From: Pezizomycotina sp. ARF18
Taxonomy: Eukaryota > Ascomycota
Length of the DNA stretch: 64,000 nucleotides
Assembly: GCA_002224055.1 (NCBI GenBank)
Contig: AZLU01000126.1
Span: 55,202 to 119,201, forward strand
Reading direction: 5' to 3'
Under the pieces are notes generated by a model, which saw only the letters and a program-made list of their open reading frames with translations, was not told the DNA's origin and ran no database searches. Made by a program: the position numbers and the translations under genes. Position 1 is the stretch's first letter, and every line of letters starts with the position of its first letter. Shown here piece by piece: positions 13,636-63,957 of this stretch.

Positions 13636-16600
13636 TGTGAAAGAAGGACGATAGAAGTGAAGTAAGATGTTATGTCTCTGACGAAGGATGCTTTGATTTG
13701 AATTGACGATTTGTGTTACAGTTGAAGTTGTTTGTTTCTTGATTGCTGATTGATGGATTGTTAAGGAGTTGAAGGGTTCAGAGTAGTAGTAATTAGAAAT
13801 TGAATTATTGGCCGGTGATGACATCCCGTTTTTCCTGTGACGTAATTTTATTCATAGCGAATTTTTTCGCGGGGATATAAAAAAAAAAAAGAAAAGAAAA
13901 AAAAAAAAAAACAGGCGCGAATTTCACATGGGAATCGATCTTCACCCTGCATAAAACAAGCAAAAGAATTATTCGGAATTATTCTATTTGGTTGCCTCTT
14001 ACGATATCATGGGCAGGGGGCTAAAGGTCAGATGCTCACGTGAAGGAAGGCTGTGGATGGATGACTCGTGCGAGTGCGTACCAAGTTTCTCGTTAAAATG
14101 TATATAGCAAGTGGGGCAGGCGAGATGAGGATATACGACAGTATTAAACCAATTACGAAGCTTCAAAACATCCTCTCAGCAAATAAGGTCATCAATCGCT
14201 TCACGAGATGCTTAGAACGTCTACTGCTCATGCGGCTTCAATCAGATACGTCCACTGGCAATTCAACTCGGGACTATTATATACACAGAAGCCCTCTTAG
14301 ATCCTGCTACAAAAGCTGAGCACCTTGACTCTAAGCATTTCCCTCCTGCAATGTGAAGTACTGGCCTCAATGTGATCCTCACCGCAAAAATTTAAGAAGG
14401 CGTGATGCTAAACAGCGGCGATACGCCATCAATGTGCAGCTTTTGTTTCAAAAAAAGACTTTTATGACATAAAAAATTAGGCGCCGAAGGCTAAAGATAC
14501 CTATTCTAACGGTATATTGTAGAGATTGCCTCACTATCCCAAAACGTAGATCTAGGATATTTTATGATGAATCAATTCTCTGTATCCGTTAGCCCAGCAC
14601 TGCTATCTAGATACAAATAATTCTAGGAGCAAACTTCTATCAGTCCGGTTTGAAGCACTTAAAACCTTAATTTCGCCCACCCTCATCGTCGACGAGCTCC
14701 CCGCAAGGTCCCGGTCCGGATAGAAATTCTTGATCCGAATCAAGCCTCGAGTTCTGTCCGCCCGTCGAGAACAGTCCAGGTTAAAATATATTTCCCAATT
14801 GGGATATATCTCTGTCCACAACTCGAGAATCAGTCGAAGTCGTCATGACACCGTGAAGACGTTCCTGAAGGATTCAGAAAGGAGCTAGCGAGTCTATTCT
14901 AGAACTGGGGGGAGGGAGGGGGGGAGTTTGGAGAAACATTTATAGTGCGATATATTGCTTAGATATAGTTCTGGTCGCAGTTCAAACCATGTTGGGTTCC
15001 CTAGGAGGTGAAAACGGACTTTTTGCCACTAAAATTGCTGTTAGTCTAGTATTGAGGTGGCGGCGACTCGAGAACAAGTAGTTGGCGTGGAACGAGTTGG
15101 CTTCTTCTTCATTTCCCCTTGAGGGAGGCGAAGTGGAATCAACAAAGCTTCATTTTAGTGGAAAGGCCCAAAACTTAATGTCCACGAAACCCTCAGCCGG
15201 CGGCAAAGTAGATATGCCCATATGCAGCTGGGGTAGCCACCCGAGGCGTTCTCATATACTCGCCACCGGTAAGCAGCATCTTAATCTCCACACTCCGCGG
15301 AGTTGATTGGTGCTTGTTTCGTTTATTTCGACCCGATATTCATGGAGATATTCATGCTTAAAAGTGCTTACTGGGCTCAATATGGCCTTCCCCGCGAGAA
15401 AAGAAACTCACCTTATATCATCGTCGAAACAGCTAGCAAGGGCATCAAAGGCATCATTTCCGATGCTCCTTCTTGCGTACTTTCGAACGGCGTAGTCAGT
15501 GTAGTGGGGCGGTATGGGTTGGGACACCTGAATTTAGGTCCGGCGCTGTTTGAGGAGGAGCTTCACCAGTGACGAGCTTAAACCTTATTTTGACTCTGAC
15601 CAAGTGGTATAGTCCGCACATGGTGAGTACATGGTACTCATCTGCATGCTCTAGCGGATCAAATCACGTTTGAATTGCTGAAATCGGGTGGGTTACTGGT
15701 GAGATAATGATGGACGATGTTTGGAGTGCTTGCGCGGCGTTTTCCTCAATATAATTTTTATTACAGATGTTTAAGTAGCGTACTCCGATCTACTCAACTT
15801 CTGAAAAGGTATTTCCATAATGTCTCCGAGTCTGTTAAGATGTTTTCCAGTCACTAAAGGCGCCCCCGGTGGAATGCATCTCGTGCCTACTAGGGTGTAT
15901 CCTAGAGAAATCAATGCAGTCCTATGAGAACTAGGAAAACCTATATTCTACGCCAGCGAGTACCTTTTAGCCCTATGAAGTGTTCCGAAATTACTCGCAT
16001 CGCCGTCGCCAAACGCCGGCTCCTGACTCTGGCCATCCAAGTGGGTTGCACAGGGGTCTTCGTTTCTCGATCTCGTATTGTTAGCGGGGGCTTCGCCGCC
16101 GAGTTACGCCGAGGACCTACCAAAGACCACTAAACCTTCTCCTAAGACACAAGCGAGTTACTTCCATTGAACGAAAAAGCGGGCTGTGTGAAACATTAAT
16201 TCTGCGCTAGGTTTTAAAAAATATCGATCTAATTACGTTTGCTTTGAGGTTCGTAAATCATGCAACGTCGGGCCGACGAAGTCCTTAGTAGTATATAATT
16301 GGCAATAGCGATGCATGAAGTAGGTTTGCGAGGATTTACATCAAAGCCATCGAGTTCAATTTGAAAACGAGCGCATGATAGAGGTAACTTGGTAACTTTC
16401 GCAGCTCACAAGGCAGCAGAGCTAGTGTACAGCTTCAAACCTTGATATACATAATACATAAAATGCACTAGGCAAGAGAGCTGCTATTCTGGATTTTGAT
16501 TTTCCCTGAATGTAGGTATCGTCAGTTCCTCGTCGATCCTTCCTATCGTTGACAGGTTTGATTCCAGGGTGGTATCTATTATCTAATATCCCCATCTGAC

Positions 16601-50418: not shown

Positions 50419-52421
50419 TCATAACAAAATCCCAGTAAATCCTTCCTCCTCTCTCCTCTCCTCCCCTTCGTCGTACAGTAAACACCTCCTTACAACCTCT
50501 TCATATATCTTCCCGCACCTCGCTCCCAGCTCATCGCATATCCCCACTAGCCTCTTCCTCCACCGTTCCCCGCCTGCACTCTTCTCGTACTCCTTCCTCC
50601 ACCCTAGAGTCCGGAGCTTCCGCCATAGCCCGATCTCCAATAATACGCAACCGAGAGAATACACGTCGTACACGCGCTTATACAGAGACGTCGTTGACGC
50701 TATTCCACATACCTGCCGGAGTAACGCGGGCGAGTATGCGGGATGCTGGTACGGTAACATCGTCGACGCCATCGCTCGAGCAGCCGATCGCGAAGCTAGC
50801 GTTACCGTCCTATCATCCGACGCGTCGTCCACGCGTGCTAACGCGAAGCCGGATACGTAAGGGTGTGAAATCGTAGCTGAAACAAAACCGACGTCATCAG
50901 GGTTTACAGCCATCGCGGAGAAGAAGAGGACGTTGTACGAGCAGAGATCCTTATGGAGGACGTTCGCAGCGTGGAGCTGTAATAGGCTGCGAGATAGAGT
51001 CCTCGCGAGGAGGATGCGGGAGCCGAGGTCCGGCTTGGAAAGTTTGGAGTCGGAGGGAGGAGGTCGTCGAGGGTTAATATGGAGCTAGTGTTGGCGTACG
51101 CTGGCGGTGGGGTTGGTGGTTTAGGAGGAGCTGGGATGAGCCGCTGCTGCGACGGGGAGGGCTTTGGTGGTGGCGCTAGGACGGCGATGGCGGCGGGTGG
51201 AGGTGTGTGCGATGGTGAGGCCGCGGGTTTGGGACGCTCGGCATGTGGAATACGAGGCCGTAGCGCTGCTTGTCCGTATCGTGAAACCAGCCGACGCATT
51301 CGAGGATCCGCATTTCACCGTCCGGTGTGTTGAACGCGCCGTATCCGCCTGCAGGATGAAATAACTCTGCGAGTCGCTGCACCCGCTCCTCTGTGAGGTC
51401 TCTGTCGTCTTCGTATGGTTTCCATTCGACGAGAACTTGCGTCGTATTCGTCACTAGTTTGTTTTGTATGTCGTCCCACGTACTCTCTTCGTACATCGCG
51501 CTCGTTCGTCGAATTACTTCCATGACCTCTTTATCTTTTTCTTTAGTAGGCGTTGAGTAGTCCAGTAATGTGATTTTCTCGTTCCACTGCGTGATCTGGA
51601 GATTGAACGCGGCGACCATTTCTCGTTCGTGCTATCGCCGGCGCGTACCTGTGCCTTCCGCAGCATCATACAACGCTGAACGTGTGGGTATTCGTCAGTG
51701 CTTCCTCTAGTATTCCGATGAGGCTGTCTTCGCGTGTTAATCCTGGGGTCGGGGTGTTTCTCTGCCGCTGCCGCTATTTCCTCTAGCCCTTCCGCCGCTT
51801 CTGCTATTTACGGTTAAGTATTCTGTGCAGAGCTGTACGACGGCGGTTCGTGTAAATGTTCGCTCCGTTGGAGTATTGCTTATCGGGTAATAACATCGTG
51901 CGTCGCCATCTCGCAGAGTAATGCCTGGGAACTGATGCCTGGCTGGGTTCCGGTAGGAGCGTCTGTAAACCGTCGTTGAGGTCTCGTAAATCGGCGATCA
52001 ACTCCTTGAATGCTTCTTTATCCGCTATCGCCCACCGGAATTTCTTCCCGAGCGATACTTTGCTACCGCCATTATTATCGGGTCCTTTCGACGTAAGTCC
52101 GTACCGGTTGCAGCGTCGTCGCATCCGACAGTAACTCTGAAATACTACTCAAATGTTCCTCAATCACCCACTCCATCCCCTTCGTTTTCGAAGCGCGGAA
52201 ACGGGCTTTCGACGCCGCTGTCGTCGGTGATCGGGATACTGATCATACCATTAGGCCCCAAGCGCGGCCCCAGGAGAGTAGCCGCCGTTCTTCGACTATT
52301 AGTTTGCAGCGGAGTACCTTTGCCGATTTTTCCTGGGCGGACATCCCGGCGATATCTCGTAGCCCTTGAGGCACTGGTCGAAGACGCCAATGACGGCAAG
52401 ACTGAAGCCTATGGCTTCCAT
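50419..52421 (-). CDS. HeLo-domain / pseudokinase fusion protein
   Basis: HeLo domains are N-terminal helical, membrane-acting modules of fungal cell-death proteins (HET-S class). From ATG 52421 the start reads MEAIGFSLAVIGVFDQCLKG, the classic HeLo opening, then KSAKVLRCKLIVEERRLLSW and KVSLGKKFRWAIADKEAF with DLRDLNDGLQTLLPEP (about 52080-51950). A linker (VEWKPYEDD.., VGWFHDTDKQRYGLVFHMPS) leads to a kinase fold at about 51060-50420: LLQLHAANVLHKDLCSYNVL as catalytic loop and VYDVYSLGCVLLEIGLW as subdomain IX. The DFG position reads SGF, so metal binding is probably lost and it is likely a pseudokinase. There are several one-base frame breaks (for example near 52340, 52240 and 51200). The same HeLo-kinase-like layout is known in fungal 'prion-inhibition and propagation' proteins. 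Presumably cytosolic until activated. Confidence 0.7.
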
Positions 52422-54297: not shown

Positions 54298-55869
54298 CTA
54301 GAACTGACGATTTTCCGATATTAATTCATGGAGATCGGGGGTGAGGGGCGGTCGAAAACCCCGAGGGTAGTCAATAGACCAGTCCTCGAACTCCTGACAA
54401 CCGCCCTGCTTCCAGCATCGTAGGTATAGAGTATCCGTGAATATTATCGGACCGTCAGATTCCAAATACCTTAAATTATGGCCACATTTCGGGTGCCGCT
54501 GTAAGGGATCTATGGATCCGTCTTCCATTCTTTTCTTTAGCCATTTATTGTACAAGTCGGCTCTTCGAAAGCACCATCCAATTCTAGTGTCGACCCTGCC
54601 TTAACAGGTAATTTCCGTCGAGGGTTTCGTGACGGTGCCAGCTATTGACAGATACGCAAAGATAGCTCCTTTAGGAAAATTTTCAATATCTATTTCGCGC
54701 CTGTAGAGATGATAGTCCCCGTCGCCCATGCTAAGGAAGTTGAGAATTTTTTGCTTCGCTTGTTCATTTGTACTGGTGCCAATGGGCTTTGGCCTCATGC
54801 ACCGAAGTTTGGCGCATCTCATTCAGCGTGTGCTCGGTGGTTTTTGACAAACGTAGAATTTTGCCTTTAAAAGGGTCCTGTTCCACAGCGGGCTCGAAAT
54901 CAAGTAGTGCTGCTTGCTAGCAAGCCATCTTCAAGTCGAAATCTGCCATAAAATACGCTCACATATGTCTTTCCAAGTACACCTCGGGCAGCACCTAGTG
55001 GAGGACGAAACAAGTCGAAGTCGCCATCCTCATCTACTCCGGTATCGCTCGTATGGTTTCCGCTGTTATCCGTCTCCCCAAGCACCAAGCCTATTTCTTC
55101 CTTTCTTTGTAGAAATATCTTGCGGATCCCTTCGAAGGTGCTTGATGTGTACACAGATATTCGAATCGAGTCTATGAAGGTTGGTGCCCGCTCCAAGGCG
55201 TCTTTTTATGGTTTTGTTAATAACAATCATAACTAACATCAGGTAAATCCATCACTAAACTTGCGCATTTAAATTTAGCGGCTTACCTGCTATAGACGTG
55301 TCATAGCCCTCATATGTGATGTTATAGAGATTCCCTTCTGCGGTGCTTCCCGGCTTTCGATTGATTCAGCGATTCTATGAACACTCTCGTGATTCCTCCT
55401 GAAGTAGTCTGCCATCCTTAGAGACCGAACCTTCTGCCCATTAAGTCGTACCGCGGCTTTGCGGCCCTCTTCAGCCGTTGGCCACTCGAGCTACGACGTA
55501 TTCCAGTTGATTATCCGTGAATTGGAACTTGAGGTATTTCCTATTTCCCCACTTCTTCAGATGAGATTTATATTGCGATTCGCTATGCGAGAGTAAGCTT
55601 TAGATATTACTAGAGAGATGGTATGACAAAGAAATGGGCTCCTCTCACCTTGCTAAAAATCCCTTCTGTACCATGATATCCATTACTTCCCGTAAGGGGC
55701 GGTCTTTTCTGAGATTAAGAATGGCCGCCTTGTTCTCTTCCCATTCTGCTTCGCTACGTGTAAACCCGATTTCTTGACGTTTCTTGTACGGCTCCTGTGG
55801 GGTGTAGATAGGGTTCCATCTGAGATCGTCGACAGAACTTGAATTCTTTCCAGATCGCCTTCGTGCCAT
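54298..55869 (-). CDS. Clr5-domain protein, paralog A
   Basis: Clr5 is a short N-terminal helix-turn-helix-like domain common in fungi. From ATG 55869: basic start, then RSEAEWEENKAAILNLRKD and REVMDIMVQKGFLAR, the Clr5 core, ended by an intron (GTGAGA). Exon 2 begins SQYKSHLKKWGNRKYLKF (about 55580) and reaches VRLNGQK (about 55465). After another intron (GTAAGC at about 55287) comes APTFIDSIRISVYTSSTFEG (about 55190). Later blocks are YHLYRREIDIENFP (about 54710) and the Cys/His end KCGHNLRYL..FTDTLYLRCWKQGGCQ (about 54490-54400), closing at 54298. Frame breaks near 55480, 55330, 54950 and 54600 fit single missing bases. Same four-block plan as paralogs B and C, in tandem with B. It may be a DNA-binding regulator, but the role is not known. 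Confidence 0.65.
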
Positions 55870-56195
55870 GGTATAGAACGACCAACCATAAAGATACCAA
55901 AAGGACCTAGACGGGTTTGGCTACTTAAAGGAAGAGAACTATAGAGGGAATGATAGGGTACAAGTGTATAGAAGGATGGGAATGATTTGGAGTCTACTAG
56001 TAGCAGGAGCATTGTAGCCAGTTTCTCCGTTTTATATAGGACTGGACATGGCAATTTACAAATAGCTAAGAAGATACGATACGCCTTTACGCTATTGAAC
56101 CCCTAGCATTGCAAAATTCTTTTCCCGATTTGGGGCAATTTGCGGAAAAGAAGGCTTCCCAATTTCCCCTTGAAAAAGCACTGCCGATAGATCTT

Positions 56196-57716
56196 CTATA
56201 TGTAATCTATTCTGTACCACTGGCAACCCCCTTTTTGCCAGCAGGCCTTTCGTAGTGTTTCAGTGAAGATAACTCGAATAAGCCCGTCCTCTCTTAAAGC
56301 CTCCGTGTAATGACCGCATTCGTAGTGCAGCCTGCCTCCGTAGAAACTGGAGCCTGAGCTGAAAAGCCAAATATTCCACGGTACCGCCTCTCGAATACAC
56401 CAGGCGATACCATAGTCGCCGGAACTTTCAGTCAGATTACCGCAGCTGCGCATATTAATAGCAAACACAGTCTCGTTTAGGTCTATTTCGCGCCGATAAA
56501 GATGGAGTGGACCTTCCCTATTTGTTTTTGTAAAAATGGAGAAATGATTCTTTTGCATACCCCAGATGCTCCTCATCAGCAAGACCACTTGTCCTGATAT
56601 CGCTCAAAATCAAAATCATACGATTTTCAAGCAAGGTATTCTGTGGATTGGGTATGATAGCAGGTGCAAAATTGAATTTGACTTTACTTGCTTTGGATGA
56701 TGCACCGGAAATATCTTCCTAGAGCTTTTCCTAGGTGCTGGGGCTTGGCCTATCGCTGCAGCAGCGAGCGAACTGCAAGTGTTCAAAGTTTGATTTAGGG
56801 TCGTCCACCACCAAACATCATCGCCGGGCCCTTCGCGCTCCCCATCTTCCTCGACCCGAGGAAGTTCAATAGTCACCCCTGAGTTTTGCCTCGGCAAAAG
56901 GAGTTTCCGGATTCCTTGAGTCTCTGACGTAACTACGCTGATACGAAGAGAATCGATAATTGGTGGTGCCCCTTTGAAGAATCCTTTCCAAAAGCAACGC
57001 TTTCGTGTAAGTTTTCGCATTGTCGTGATGCACGGAAAATCACCTCTAACATAAGCGAGCAGGTAGTAACTAACCAGTAATAGGTTCAAATTCCGCTGCA
57101 TATTCATATCCTATGCTATAGAGACCTCCGTTGTGACTCTGATTCACCTCCACGGCTCCTTCGGCATCTCTCCTGAGATTCTTCTTAAGATAAGCTCCCA
57201 TGCTTCGAGACGGGATCTTCTGGCCATTGAGTCGCACAGCGGCCTTAGAACCATCTTTCTGTTTTGTAAGACTTTTTCTACAACATATTCAATTGATTCT
57301 TCGTTAGCTGCAATTTAGCATATTTTCTACTCCCCCACTTTTGAACATATATATATATTGGGATTCGCTTTGTTTCAGTTTGTGAATAATAAATTACCAA
57401 ATTGTTAATAACCGTTCCTTTTTACTCCTGGGATGGGAAGAATCCCTGATGCAAAGAAAGGGATCGACGGTAATGCCTTCAACTTACCTCGCAATAAATC
57501 CTCTTTCCGCCATGACTTCCATCACCCGTTGTAATATGTGATACTCTCTGAGAGCTAGGATAGCTTCTTTATTCTCCTCCTATGTTTCTTGCTATATACC
57601 ACTTCGGGCATTATTTCTCGACGTTTTTTATACTGAGGAGTGGGAGTAGAAATAAGCTTCCACCTAAAGCCACCGGGCCTAGTAGGTTGCTGTTGTTCAG
57701 GTCGCTTTTGAGCCAT
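56196..57716 (-). CDS. Clr5-domain protein, paralog B
   Basis: From ATG 57716: MAQKRPEQQQPTRPGGFRWK, then the Clr5 core EENKEAILALREYHILQRVM with EVMAERGFIAR at about 57490, reached after a frame break near 57590. Exon 2 has the KxxG Clr5 tail and AAVRLNGQKIPS (about 57235). A further exon starts near 57107. The middle block reads APPIIDSLRISVVTSETQG (about 56960), followed by an acidic linker and an Ala/Lys-rich stretch. LHLYRREIDLNETVFAI (about 56500) and the C-terminal YECGHYTEAL..IFTETLRKACWQKGGCQW (about 56330-56215) complete the plan. Compared with A and C, the Cys/His block has an insertion of a few residues. At least three one-base breaks. Divergent from paralog C with 1.17 kb between the two starts. 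Confidence 0.6.
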
Positions 57717-58890
57717 TATCCCTGGCTGATTGGAGATGATTGGGTACTTTGGGGATGGAAAAGAGAGAAGCGATAAGTTTCAGAGATGAGCATGGTCTTA
57801 TTCGGCCCTCGATTTATAGATCGAATGTGTTTGAAAGCAGAGGTTCCCATGGCCCTTCGAAATGCCTCCTGGAGAAAAGAAAGTACAATTTCACCAATAC
57901 GAGAGCAAAAAGTCAGTTTTCCCAAACTGGGGAAATTTGGTGGGAAAATTCTTGAACGTTTGAGGTCTCCGAGACAATTCCGTCTACATATTGCCACTCC
58001 AGAAACCTGCACCATTTACAACCCTTTACATATGCAAGAATAACTGGTGAACTTCCAATACATTGAGCCGTGAGAACTCTGGTTAGGAAGCATAGGCCAG
58101 ATGGAGGATAATTATAAGGATGGAGTTTTTTTCCACCAATCGAACGTATTGGCATCTTTTTTTTCTGATAGTTATCAAGCTTCACTACGTTGCAAGGTAG
58201 AACACATTGACGCTATATGTGATTGTCTCAAGCTAAAGTCCATTTTTCACAGTGAAAACAGCGCAGAATACTTGACGGACGACGAAGAACCAGTCGGTTT
58301 CCTCTGTTGCCCTTGTTCTTTTTGCTTTCCATTCGTTGGATCCTACATTATATTTAGCACTATAAAACCTGTAGAACAACCGAAGTACGCCCGGTAGTCT
58401 TATCTAGAGATCCGTCACTGTCACCGCCCGGCGCAAAAGTCCTCACGGTAAAAGCGGGCTTGAAGCCCCAGACAACCCCTATAGATTATTTACAATACGG
58501 ATCCGGGTATATTAGAAAGGGGTCCTACGAAGACGCCTGAGCTCCTTAAGCCGAAGGCCTTTCCCATGTTGTTATACTGCAATTAAACCACGCGCCTTGA
58601 ATCCTGATACACCTCCGAAATCAAAAGCCTTGTCGCTAAATATTCCAACTCGGGAAAACTTCTTTTTCACTGACTGGATTTTATTCGCTCAGAGTTGTAA
58701 CGACCGATTCTTGTCCAGGCATGCATGTTGGTATTATAAACCCCATCCAGAAACCACTTCTTCACCACGACTCGAACTCTTGAATGTAACCTAAAAAAAT
58801 ATCTTTGCCTTCGGTGTACTTTATTTAAGTCTTCAGTGGTTTTTTACCCTTCTTTCTATTTCTTGGGCCCTTACTAGCAGATAGGATATC
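57717..58890. other. Bidirectional promoter region between paralogs B and C
   Basis: A head-to-head intergenic region of 1,174 bases. A 98-codon frame at 58101-58397 contains a Cys-rich hydrophobic end (LCCPCSFCFPFVGSYIIF), but it lacks a leader or homologous copy and is not called. Confidence 0.45.
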
Positions 58891-60634
58891 ATGGCGCAAA
58901 GGCGGCTCGGAAAACGGTCAGAATCCGGCGGCATCAAATGGAAGTCCATCTCCACTCCGACTACACCGTATAAGAAACGCGGAGAAAGGCTACCAGGGAC
59001 CGTCGATAGCAGACAGGAGTGGGAAGGTGATAAGGAAGTCATCATAGCCTCTATAAGAACAAGGAATTACCCGAAGTGATGTTATGGCGCAGAGAGGCTT
59101 CGTTGCGAGGTAAGGCTTTTATTCGTCACTTTCCGAATGGGGCAAGATTGCTAAGAGTAACAAAGCGAGCCACAATACAAATATCACTTGAGGAAATGGG
59201 GGAACTGGAAGTATCTTAAATTCACGGAGCAGCAGCTGAAATACGTTGTGGAGAATATCGTGCAAAGGCAGGGAGCGAGTGTTAAGGCGGCTGTGAGGCT
59301 CAACGGGGAGAAGATCCCGTCCAAGAAGATGGAAGCCTATCTTAAAAAAATCATGAACGCGTTAAGAGAATCACTGAAAGGTTCATTGAAAGACTCCAGC
59401 AGGAGCCTGAGAAAGGCAATCCCTTTAAGAATCCGTACGGTACATATGATGAAGATGATGCCGAGGATAGATACGAAGACGAAGACGGGATAATGCCAAT
59501 GGCGGGTATGTAGCTCACTGCTTGATATTCTTATATAATGTTTAATTGCACCCTGACAAACGGGATTTCGTTTAGAAAGCTACCTTTAATAAAGCGCCGA
59601 CATTCATCGACTCACTCCGTATAACCGTGTACACATCGAGCACTGTCCAAGGCATTCGACGGGCCATATCTCTAAAAAAGAAGCGAGATCAGCAGGCCAC
59701 CAAAATTCCCGAACCTGAAGAGAATAACAGGATACCCGAAGTTCTAAATTCTATACATAGCTATGGAGACGCGGAGGGATCAAACCGACCAAAGCTGCCA
59801 GCGGCAGGCGATGGTGCAGAGGATACTTATTCCTGGTCCTAAATACCCAAAACCAGACATATGAGCCTCAAATGCTCGACAACGCCATACCCGGCGCCGC
59901 TTCCGCTCAATTCACCTGGGAAGCGATTAGCGAGCGAATCCTGAGCCCAGAAGCAGACAGCCCGAATCAGCGGCGGGCCATACTTCATTTCGATCCCATT
60001 ATTCTGAACGGGTTATGGGGCGTCAATTACTTATATATTCCAGAGACAAGACTCAAAACTCTGCTCCGGCTTTCGAAGGGCGAGTGTCATAAGGAAGAAG
60101 TCAGACAAGACTTTATCAGCTTCCTGAGCGCGAGCGAAGGCTATCATTTGTATAGAAGAGAGGTCGATATCAATGACCTCCCTGAATACCTCCCTGAATA
60201 CGTCTTTACAGTTGACGTAACGGCTGGGATTGCCCCAGGACGGAATACTCCGGACGGCGGGAAGTTACCAAGAGCGGGTTTAGGGGGTGGGGTTTCCAGG
60301 GAACTGGCCATTCTTGTATTGTGTGGTGCGCCAGAAGGCGGATTTATACAACGAGTCTCTACGTAGACTTGAAACCTCGACAGAGATGGACCACAAGTTC
60401 CAATGCGGTCACACTCTGAGAACTCTAGGATGTGACGGACCGGTTATATTCACCGACACATTGCGAAGGAATTGCTGGCAACAAATGGGCTGCCAGTGGT
60501 CTAGGATGAGACTCGAGGATGCTACAATGATGCCATTGATGATCCGCGTAAATCAGTCCTATCGCCAGAGGTACATGCCGTGGAGTAGTTCTTCGACAGT
60601 AGCTGACGAGTATACGGTTGCGCTCTATCGCTAA
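58891..60634 (+). CDS. Clr5-domain protein, paralog C
   Basis: The best preserved of the three. MAQRRLGKRSESGGIKWKSI starts the protein, with QEWEGDKEVIIASIRT and MAQRGFVAR forming the Clr5 core, then an intron (donor GTAAGG at about 59112). Exon 2: QYKYHLRKWGNWKYLKFTE (59176) and KAAVRLNGEKIPSKKM (59287), then an acidic region (YDEDDAEDRYEDEDG) and an intron (GTATGT at about 59506). Exon 3: APTFIDSLRITVYTSSTVQG (59599), a linker, then FTWEAISERIL and ILNGLWGVNYLYIPETRL (60000). YHLYRREVDINDLPEYLP (60145) and the Cys/His end FQCGHTLRTLGC..FTDTLRRNCWQQMGCQW (60400-60500) follow, ending near 60634. Frame breaks lie at about 59078, 59360, 59840 and 60290. The clean alignment with A and B across all blocks argues for function at least until recently. 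Confidence 0.7.
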
Positions 60635-62129: not shown

Positions 62130-63957
62130 ATGCCACCGCAAGCCGACCCTGAAAGTCCTCCCTCCTCCCCTCCGCCCTGACTGGCGCCGCCACCTCCTCT
62201 CCACCCGCACGCGCCTTCCGCGCCCTATCACCACCACTACTCCCGCCTTCCCACCCCAATCCTCCACGCGACGGACGTACATCATCTCCTTCATCTCCGT
62301 AACGTCCATAATACTCCTCCTGCACGTCTTCAACCCCGTCCGGTACATCGACCACTATCACCGCACCACCACCCGCATTATTCTCCCCATCATACTTTAA
62401 TACGCCGCAATGTCCGCAAATACCACCCCTCGGTGCGAGTGTTACGACGGAGACGCTGAAAGATACGGAAGAGTATATTAGCAGTAAAGAATACAGGAAG
62501 TGTCAGCGACTTACCTCTCAGAAGCGATACAGATCCCAACGGTGATGTATGACGGTATGAAACCAATCGGTTCGGATGCGCGCTGGGATGTCTTTCCGGA
62601 GTTTTTGCGGTGGTAGAGGGAAATTTTCCGCTGTTACATGCGAAGAAGGAAGTGGGTGTGCACCGGGTAAATACGCTTAATATGCTGTACGTATGGAAAG
62701 GAAGTGATGAATCACTCAAGCCGACGTTATTGATGGCGCACTACGACGTCGTTCCCGTCGAACCATCCACGCTGAACATGTGGACACATCCACCATTTTC
62801 GGGATATATCGACAACTTCGATGGCGGAGAGAAAGAGTATATTTGGGGCCGCGGGTCCAGCGATGACAAAAACCGACTTATAGCTATATTTGAGAGCGTC
62901 GAACTACTTATCAAAGCGGGATTTACACCAAAAAAACGTTAATTTTGTCTTTTGGTTGTAGCGAGGAGAGTAACAGCGATCAAGGCGCTGCTAAGTTAGC
63001 GCCGTACATTGAGAAACTCTATCCAGGTGGAGTAGAGGTTGTAATAGATGAGGGCGGCGGCATCATTGCGGATTATGATATGGGGTGGGCTGCTGAGAGG
63101 ACTAAAGATACGAAGACGTTCATGTTAGCCGCGACGGGTGAGAAGGGGTACACGGATATTATATACACGCTTCGTCTCCCCGGAGGACACAGCTCAGTTC
63201 CACCGGATCGGACTGCGATCGGTATTGTAGGGGAATTAGCGGCGATGGTCGAGGAACACCCTTTCACTCCTTACATCGCGGAAGAGAATCCGTTTATCGG
63301 TAGTCTAAACTGCGGCGCTGAACACGCGCTCGGTTTTCCGAAGGATATCAAGAGAATGCTGGATAAAGAAGACTGGGAAGCGTTAGAGCACAAACTCTAC
63401 CAGGAAGAACAATCCCGCTACCTTATTACTACGAGCAGCGCTACGACTGTTATCCGCGGCGGTGTTAAAGCGAACGCGCTACCGGAGTCTGTCACGCTGA
63501 ACGTTAACGTGCGATTAACATCGGAGAGACGATTGAGGATATTAAGGAACATTACCTCGAAATGGCGAATACGCTGGCGAAGAAACATAATATTACTGTG
63601 GTCCCGTACGGATTACAAGCACTCTGCGAGGGCGTCGAGCGGTGTTTACATGTTGGAACGTCGGACCATTTAGACGTCGCGCCCGTATCGCCGACAACCC
63701 TGCACACCGACGACGGAAAGCTCACGGCGTGGGGCGTTCTCGTCGGTGCGACAAGAGCGGTCTTCGGCGAGGATGTGATCGTGAGCCCGGGACTCATGAG
63801 CGGGAATACGGACACGAGGTACTACTGGGTTTGAGTAAGGCGATTTATAGGGTGTCCCCGGTGGATGTAAGTAAAGAAGGGCTCAGGCGGCGAGAGCATA
63901 CATACTGTGGTAATATATGACTCCCCCGTGTTTCGCGGTTCAGAGGAACGAGGCTAA
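62130..63957 (+). CDS. M20-family metallo-carboxypeptidase (Cps1-like), membrane-anchored
   Basis: A zinc peptidase resembling vacuolar carboxypeptidase S, which releases C-terminal residues from peptides. From ATG 62130 (MPPQADPESPPSSPP), a Pro-rich cytosolic start leads to one membrane segment (YIISFISVTSIILLLHVF, about 62280). Then LLSEAIQIPTVMYDGM (about 62510) and the metal-binding sequence TLLMAHYDVVPVEP (62730, the H-x-D motif), YIWGRGSSDDKN (62840, second Asp), and CSEESNSDQGAA (about 62955, catalytic Glu pair). The dimerisation domain has LRLPGGHSSVPPDRTAIG (63170). The end shows PGLMSGNTDTRYYW (about 63790) and AIYRVSPVDVSKEG. Frame breaks near 62170-62420, 62618, 62945, 63517 and 63830 each fit one missing base. 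The true stop is uncertain (63920 or 63957). All metal ligands I can place are intact. Confidence 0.75.

Follow-up and report, generated by a model that had tools for sequence, protein, structure and literature searches.

In some fungi the Clr5-domain proteins, probable agents of gene silencing, form large families about which little is understood, and the locus considered here raises the question of whether neighbouring Clr5 genes with a common C-terminal end form a set of their own, or are simply part of a wider expansion. The three genes in question, which we call A, B and C, lie in a stretch of 64,000 nucleotides from Pezizomycotina sp. ARF18 (C126:55202-119201, hereafter the window; contigs are written as C with a number), and the genome scanned with it (46.36 Mb in 408 contigs) is the one genome to which all results below refer. 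The results suggest that A, B and C belong to a subfamily of five genes, each preceded by the same short DNA element, and that the copies carry a C-terminal cysteine/histidine (Cys/His) module which is alike beyond chance.

Five genes and their upstream element

A and B stand in tandem on the minus strand and C is divergent from B. In all three the blocks follow one another in the same order (Clr5 domain, VRLNG tail, IDS block, LYRRE block, Cys/His module), just as and where the first-pass annotation of the window had described them. Used as a query against the whole genome, the module of A finds that of C (E=1.1e-11) and of B (3.3e-9), and one place each on C127 (2.1e-5) and C1 (1.1e-3), a likeness among the copies that exceeds chance; the module of C finds the same five places and a sixth, weak one on C35 (E=0.16). 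The place on C127 has Clr5, tail, IDS, LYRRE and module pieces in the order of the array, and its Clr5 domain (PF14420) scores 26.8 bits, over the curated cut-off. That on C1 has Clr5, tail, LYRRE and module pieces together with an IDS-like piece, APSIVDSMQISICTSNT, again in array order. If array-type genes are defined, as they are here, by a LYRRE block and, after it, the Cys/His module, both following Clr5 and tail, these two features are present in A, B, C, C127 and C1, and are the markers of the subfamily. Judged by their sequences, A, B and C are thus three members of a five-gene subfamily to which C127 and C1 contribute one gene each. The earlier picture of a three-gene array holds for the genes that it named and not for the limit of the set, since the blocks have homologs outside the three copies.

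That the N-terminal part is a known Clr5 domain, as had also been claimed, can be said directly of A: its exon-1 piece alone reaches 22.2 bits (cut-off 22.3), and the two exon pieces taken jointly reach 38.4 bits, above that cut-off. The exon-1 pieces of B and C, in which the frames are broken, have no Pfam match and neither gene is among the 30 Clr5 places of the genome; we identify them as Clr5 genes because they resemble A and other paralogs.

All five subfamily genes (5/5) are preceded, in sense orientation, by a dyad-like site, CCNRNTYGGGAAAW, with a T-run behind it. Counted from where its 14-base core ends on the 3′ side, the candidate ATG is 235 bp away on C127 and 241 bp away on C1, and the distances for A, B and C are given in Table 1. 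The best 22-mer shared by the five 450-bp upstream regions scores 65, which 0/200 dinucleotide shuffles reach (56.5 ± 1.2, maximum 61). With the T-run, the pattern occurs at 6 distinct sites in the genome, 5 of them before subfamily genes, and at 0 when reversed as a control, a specificity that is partly circular because the pattern was drawn from the same five sites. The core alone occurs at 50 genome sites versus 22 in the control, and six of the 50 stand before Clr5 genes, i.e., the five and one on C119 (C119:58900-58913, locus L030), where the 14-base core is the same as that of C1 and the Clr5 gene has a different C-terminus. A looser core, sought in the 1-kb upstream regions of the 30 Clr5 matches, gives five sense sites (at four loci) and zero antisense. 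In a held-out test with a matrix built from A, B and C, C1 ranks first, its score being reached by 0/284 background chunks. We take the element to be real for the five subfamily genes.

The sixth site with a T-run lies elsewhere in the window (Table 1) and, by eye, adjoins no Clr5 family member; two core sites are found 180 bases apart on one strand at C360:832-1024. At a core site on C199 no Clr5 gene is seen by eye. An element common to the whole family was considered and is not claimed here: at several other Clr5 loci the best match falls at about -290 to -450, yet the sense and antisense means are nearly equal.

The Cys/His module within a large family

Four Cys and one His of the module (WC/YC, CxH, C(W), GC) are kept in 5/5 subfamily genes, when pieces from all frames are counted, although most other positions vary, which extends to five genes what had been noticed in three. 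The module was described as unrecognised, and so it stays, since profile searches place it in no known domain: against Pfam, NCBIfam and PDB sequences there is no credible match at the thresholds applied (none at all in NCBIfam, and a sole sub-threshold listing, DCP1, at E=0.096), a sequence profile of the module has no match in PDB up to E=10, and no Pfam model tested covers any part of the sequence behind the Clr5 domain. Over 55 codons of LYRRE and module the proportion of nonsynonymous differences (pN) is 0.24-0.39 versus 0.84-1.10 for synonymous ones (pS), these being hand-picked conserved blocks, a choice that lowers pN; the synonymous sites are saturated, and the synonymous rate, dS, is not computable. 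As far as the sequences indicate, the copies are old and the protein is constrained. Where they had been called either old or fast-evolving, the first holds and the second finds no support in the module.

The subfamily is a small part of a large family. Clr5 (PF14420) is found at at least 30 places on 20 contigs, a lower bound which includes A and C127 and misses B, C and C1, and these places are clustered, with 14 pairs within 20 kb versus 0.38 expected under uniform placement. The VRLNG tail of C, used as a query, matches at 19 places, C itself counted, and the split Clr5 with a QYK..LKKWG second half is common to the array and many paralogs. A YTSST motif, like that of block 2, stands downstream and in sense at 9/30 Clr5 places (277-527 bases away at eight and 916 at the ninth), with one unrelated antisense match, by a regular expression composed after examples had been seen; a profile from the seed motifs gives only weak matches at non-seed Clr5 loci, the best at E=0.0046. 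Given the tail at 19 places and YTSST at 9/30, blocks 1 and 2 are features of the family, and the idea that all three non-Clr5 blocks were particular to the array finds no support.

Beyond these blocks the paralogs go different ways. Six C-terminal pieces of other Clr5 genes (two from L055, and one each from L041, L030, L056 and L043) have no Pfam match up to E=0.1, and L050 has weak coiled-coil names only, with a coiled-coil-like stretch after its YTSST motif. The strongest Clr5 match, L036 (C85:83600-90600), is followed by what appear by eye to be ankyrin-like repeats, and therefore the family has other C-terminal partners. One cluster, at C34:124000-173000 (L050, L055, L049), holds four Clr5 matches and an extra tail match at C34:141358. 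Another, at C12:327000-364000 (L038-L041), holds at least six, besides two further Clr5 genes that inspection by eye shows in L038. Adjoining the subfamily gene on C1 is a 600-codon Cys-rich open frame (L052:6991-8790, minus strand) with a sub-threshold Pfam match only.

The C12 cluster resembles the array in its Clr5 domain, an AVRW-type tail and a (Y/F)TSST block, and three of its genes end in CxH..C(W/F)xPGGCxW, which is divergent from the array module. CxH, C(W/F) and GGC are present in 3/3 of these genes and the first WC in 0/3, LYRRE and the upstream element are absent, and a CxxC lies further upstream; in sequence the two kinds of ending match only weakly (E=0.04 and 0.028), the relation resting on position and pattern. 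Cys/His-type endings therefore seem to be spread within the family. This bears on the simplest alternative, namely that A, B and C are unremarkable genes of a Clr5 family expanded in this lineage, with a module that is a metal-free structural end cap and an element that is an ordinary promoter core. Such expansions are known, an example being the 85-member Clr5 orthogroup mentioned in a Dothideomycetes comparison (PMC11412873), and the divergent C12 ending would suit such a view. A general promoter core should, however, occur at more than the 6 genome sites that the element has with its T-run, and the Cys and His are retained where most other positions vary. We consider this alternative somewhat unlikely.

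Broken frames, the HeLo neighbour and a tentative reading

Each of A, B and C is spread over several frames, with about 4-5 frame changes per gene (by eye) and in-frame stops, and the genes on C127 and C1 are frame-split as well. In principle, this is what a relic would look like, in which at least one of A, B and C is a pseudogene and the kept residues are the remnant of an old constraint. The same kind of break is found, however, in genes that ought to be intact. At 7/8 Cpn60/TCP1 chaperonin places of the genome, frame-changed profile pieces overlap or are separated by <=3 nt, too little to accommodate an intron (the eighth, on C70, has two distant pieces only), and the breaks of one chaperonin, L058, look similar to those of A-C, as judged by eye from sequence motifs. 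Closer to the array, 2 kb past C, an M20 peptidase gene gives a local check on indels of the assembly: its reading passes through four pieces that overlap and change frame, the second and third recognised by Pfam and the first and fourth by eye. Since the seven chaperonin places and the M20 gene next to the array show this pattern too, indel errors of the assembly are most likely what breaks the frames of A-C, a judgement on the breaks together and not on each of them. Broken frames are then no proof of pseudogenes in A-C, and, as a warning for the whole assembly, should not be taken for pseudogenes elsewhere in it. A relic would, moreover, hardly have retained the Cys and His of the module while synonymous sites became saturated, nor the upstream element, and we regard it as unlikely that the array is one.

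Table 1. Array genes, their upstream elements and other features, by position in the window
Feature	Position	Strand	Remark
Gene A	55869-54301	-	candidate ATG at 55869
Gene A, Clr5 exon 1	55869-55648	-	
Gene A, exon 2 and tail	about 55599-55293	-	
Gene A, IDS/YTSST block	55205-54903	-	
Gene A, LYRRE block	54822-54604	-	
Gene A, Cys/His module	54600-54301	-	WC, CGH, CW, GGC
Upstream element of A	56113..56133	-	251 bp from core to ATG
Gene B	57716-56199	-	candidate ATG at 57716
Gene B, Clr5 exon 1	about 57716-57487	-	internal frame change
Gene B, exon 2 and tail	about 57421-57073	-	
Gene B, IDS block	57110-56619	-	
Gene B, LYRRE and Cys/His module	56603-56199	-	single open frame
Gene B, Cys/His module	56199..56350	-	left limit approximate; CGH, CW, GGC; WC directly precedes it, at about 56400
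Upstream element of B	57907..57930	-	201 bp from core to ATG
Gene C	58891-60631	+	candidate ATG at 58891
Gene C, Clr5 exon 1	58891 to about 59116	+	internal frame changes
Gene C, exon 2 and tail	59161-59490	+	
Gene C, IDS block	59576-59839	+	
Gene C, LYRRE block	59761-60363	+	
Gene C, Cys/His module piece	60284-60631	+	
Gene C, Cys/His module	60284..60500	+	right limit approximate; YC, CGH, CW, GC
Upstream element of C	58645..58666	+	233 bp from core to ATG
Sixth site with T-run	14783-14803	-	
DUF7580 match	50422-51084	-	pseudokinase-like; sub-threshold
HeLo domain (PF14479)	51804-52148	-	E=1e-11
M20 peptidase	62488-63831	+	

The other neighbour of interest lies about 2 kb from A, where a HeLo/pseudokinase gene had been reported and a role of the array in incompatibility proposed. 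The HeLo domain is real, whereas the pseudokinase part amounts to a sub-threshold DUF7580 match, the HeLo gene being itself frame-split. Because the genome has only 5 HeLo places, to find one beside the array is mildly unusual, and this would favor a recognition or heterokaryon-incompatibility locus in which array and neighbour act together. A recurrent linkage is nevertheless not seen, with 1/5 HeLo places next to the array: the other four are on C284, C55 (two) and C401, contigs that have no Clr5 match among the genome Clr5 or tail matches listed, and C127 and C1 have no HeLo match. Nor does Pfam, the sole search made, find a NACHT, HET or amyloid motif in A-C. An incompatibility role thus rests on a single neighbour, and we hold it to be most improbable.

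The reading that we favor takes A-C to be genes of the five-member subfamily, within a large and partly clustered Clr5 family, with frames broken by the assembly, a zinc-type module and co-regulation through the upstream element; we see it as evenly poised between right and wrong. DNA or chromatin would be the target of the Clr5 N-terminus, and the C-terminal module would hold a zinc ion and bind nucleic acid or a partner. A dimeric DNA-binding protein would co-regulate the five genes by acting on their dyad-like element, the TTTCC-N5-GGGAAA-type site 201-251 bp before the candidate ATGs.

Several points weigh against this reading, besides the partial circularity of the site counts and the lowering of pN by the choice of codons already noted. 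In the held-out test C127 and C119 are nominal only (12/284 each) and are outscored by two other Clr5 loci, and over 32 loci the sense mean of the matrix, 9.02, barely exceeds the antisense one, 8.67. AlphaFold2 predictions of the module, made from the window rows, have a mean predicted local distance difference test score (pLDDT) of 49.3 with 3 rows and 40.4 with 5; because of this low confidence we can only infer metal binding, which the Cys/His spacing makes plausible. DNA binding by Clr5 is presumed here from general background. There may also be a moderate excess of frame changes in the array over L058.

It is tempting to go one step further and to see in the five genes a self-regulating set, whose Clr5 N-termini would bind the TTTCC-N5-GGGAAA-like dyad before their own and their sister genes, and whose zinc-type tails would recruit silencing enzymes. 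If this were true, each copy would be held down by the others, and no more than a few would be expressed at once. We regard this extension as very doubtful.

Comparison with known Clr5 and HeLo systems

In the accessible text of the papers concerned, Clr5 of fission yeast is described as acting in chromatin silencing with histone deacetylase, and the function of Clr5 is given only via that species (PMC7608984, PMC5003357), or else Clr5 is listed among expanded families (PMC11412873). In the Clr5 literature more widely (including PMC6525431, PMC6627653 and PMC12258605), of which subscription papers were mostly beyond reach, the parts available describe neither the module nor the upstream element. 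The array resembles Schizosaccharomyces pombe Clr5 in the N-terminal domain only, a likeness by Pfam name, and differs from it in the C-terminal modules and in the tandem and divergent arrangement of the genes. With the Clr5 domain family (PF14420) it shares the domain itself, A being over the cut-off, and it departs from that family after the domain, where it is outside the Pfam models tested. The HeLo and HeLo-like incompatibility genes (PF14479) are like it by neighbourhood only, the array having no HeLo part. Set beside these systems, what is new here is a five-gene Clr5 subfamily distinguished by a particular C-terminal module and by a nearly private upstream element. It offers a DNA site, five target genes and a binding domain, all of them candidates, for joint testing.

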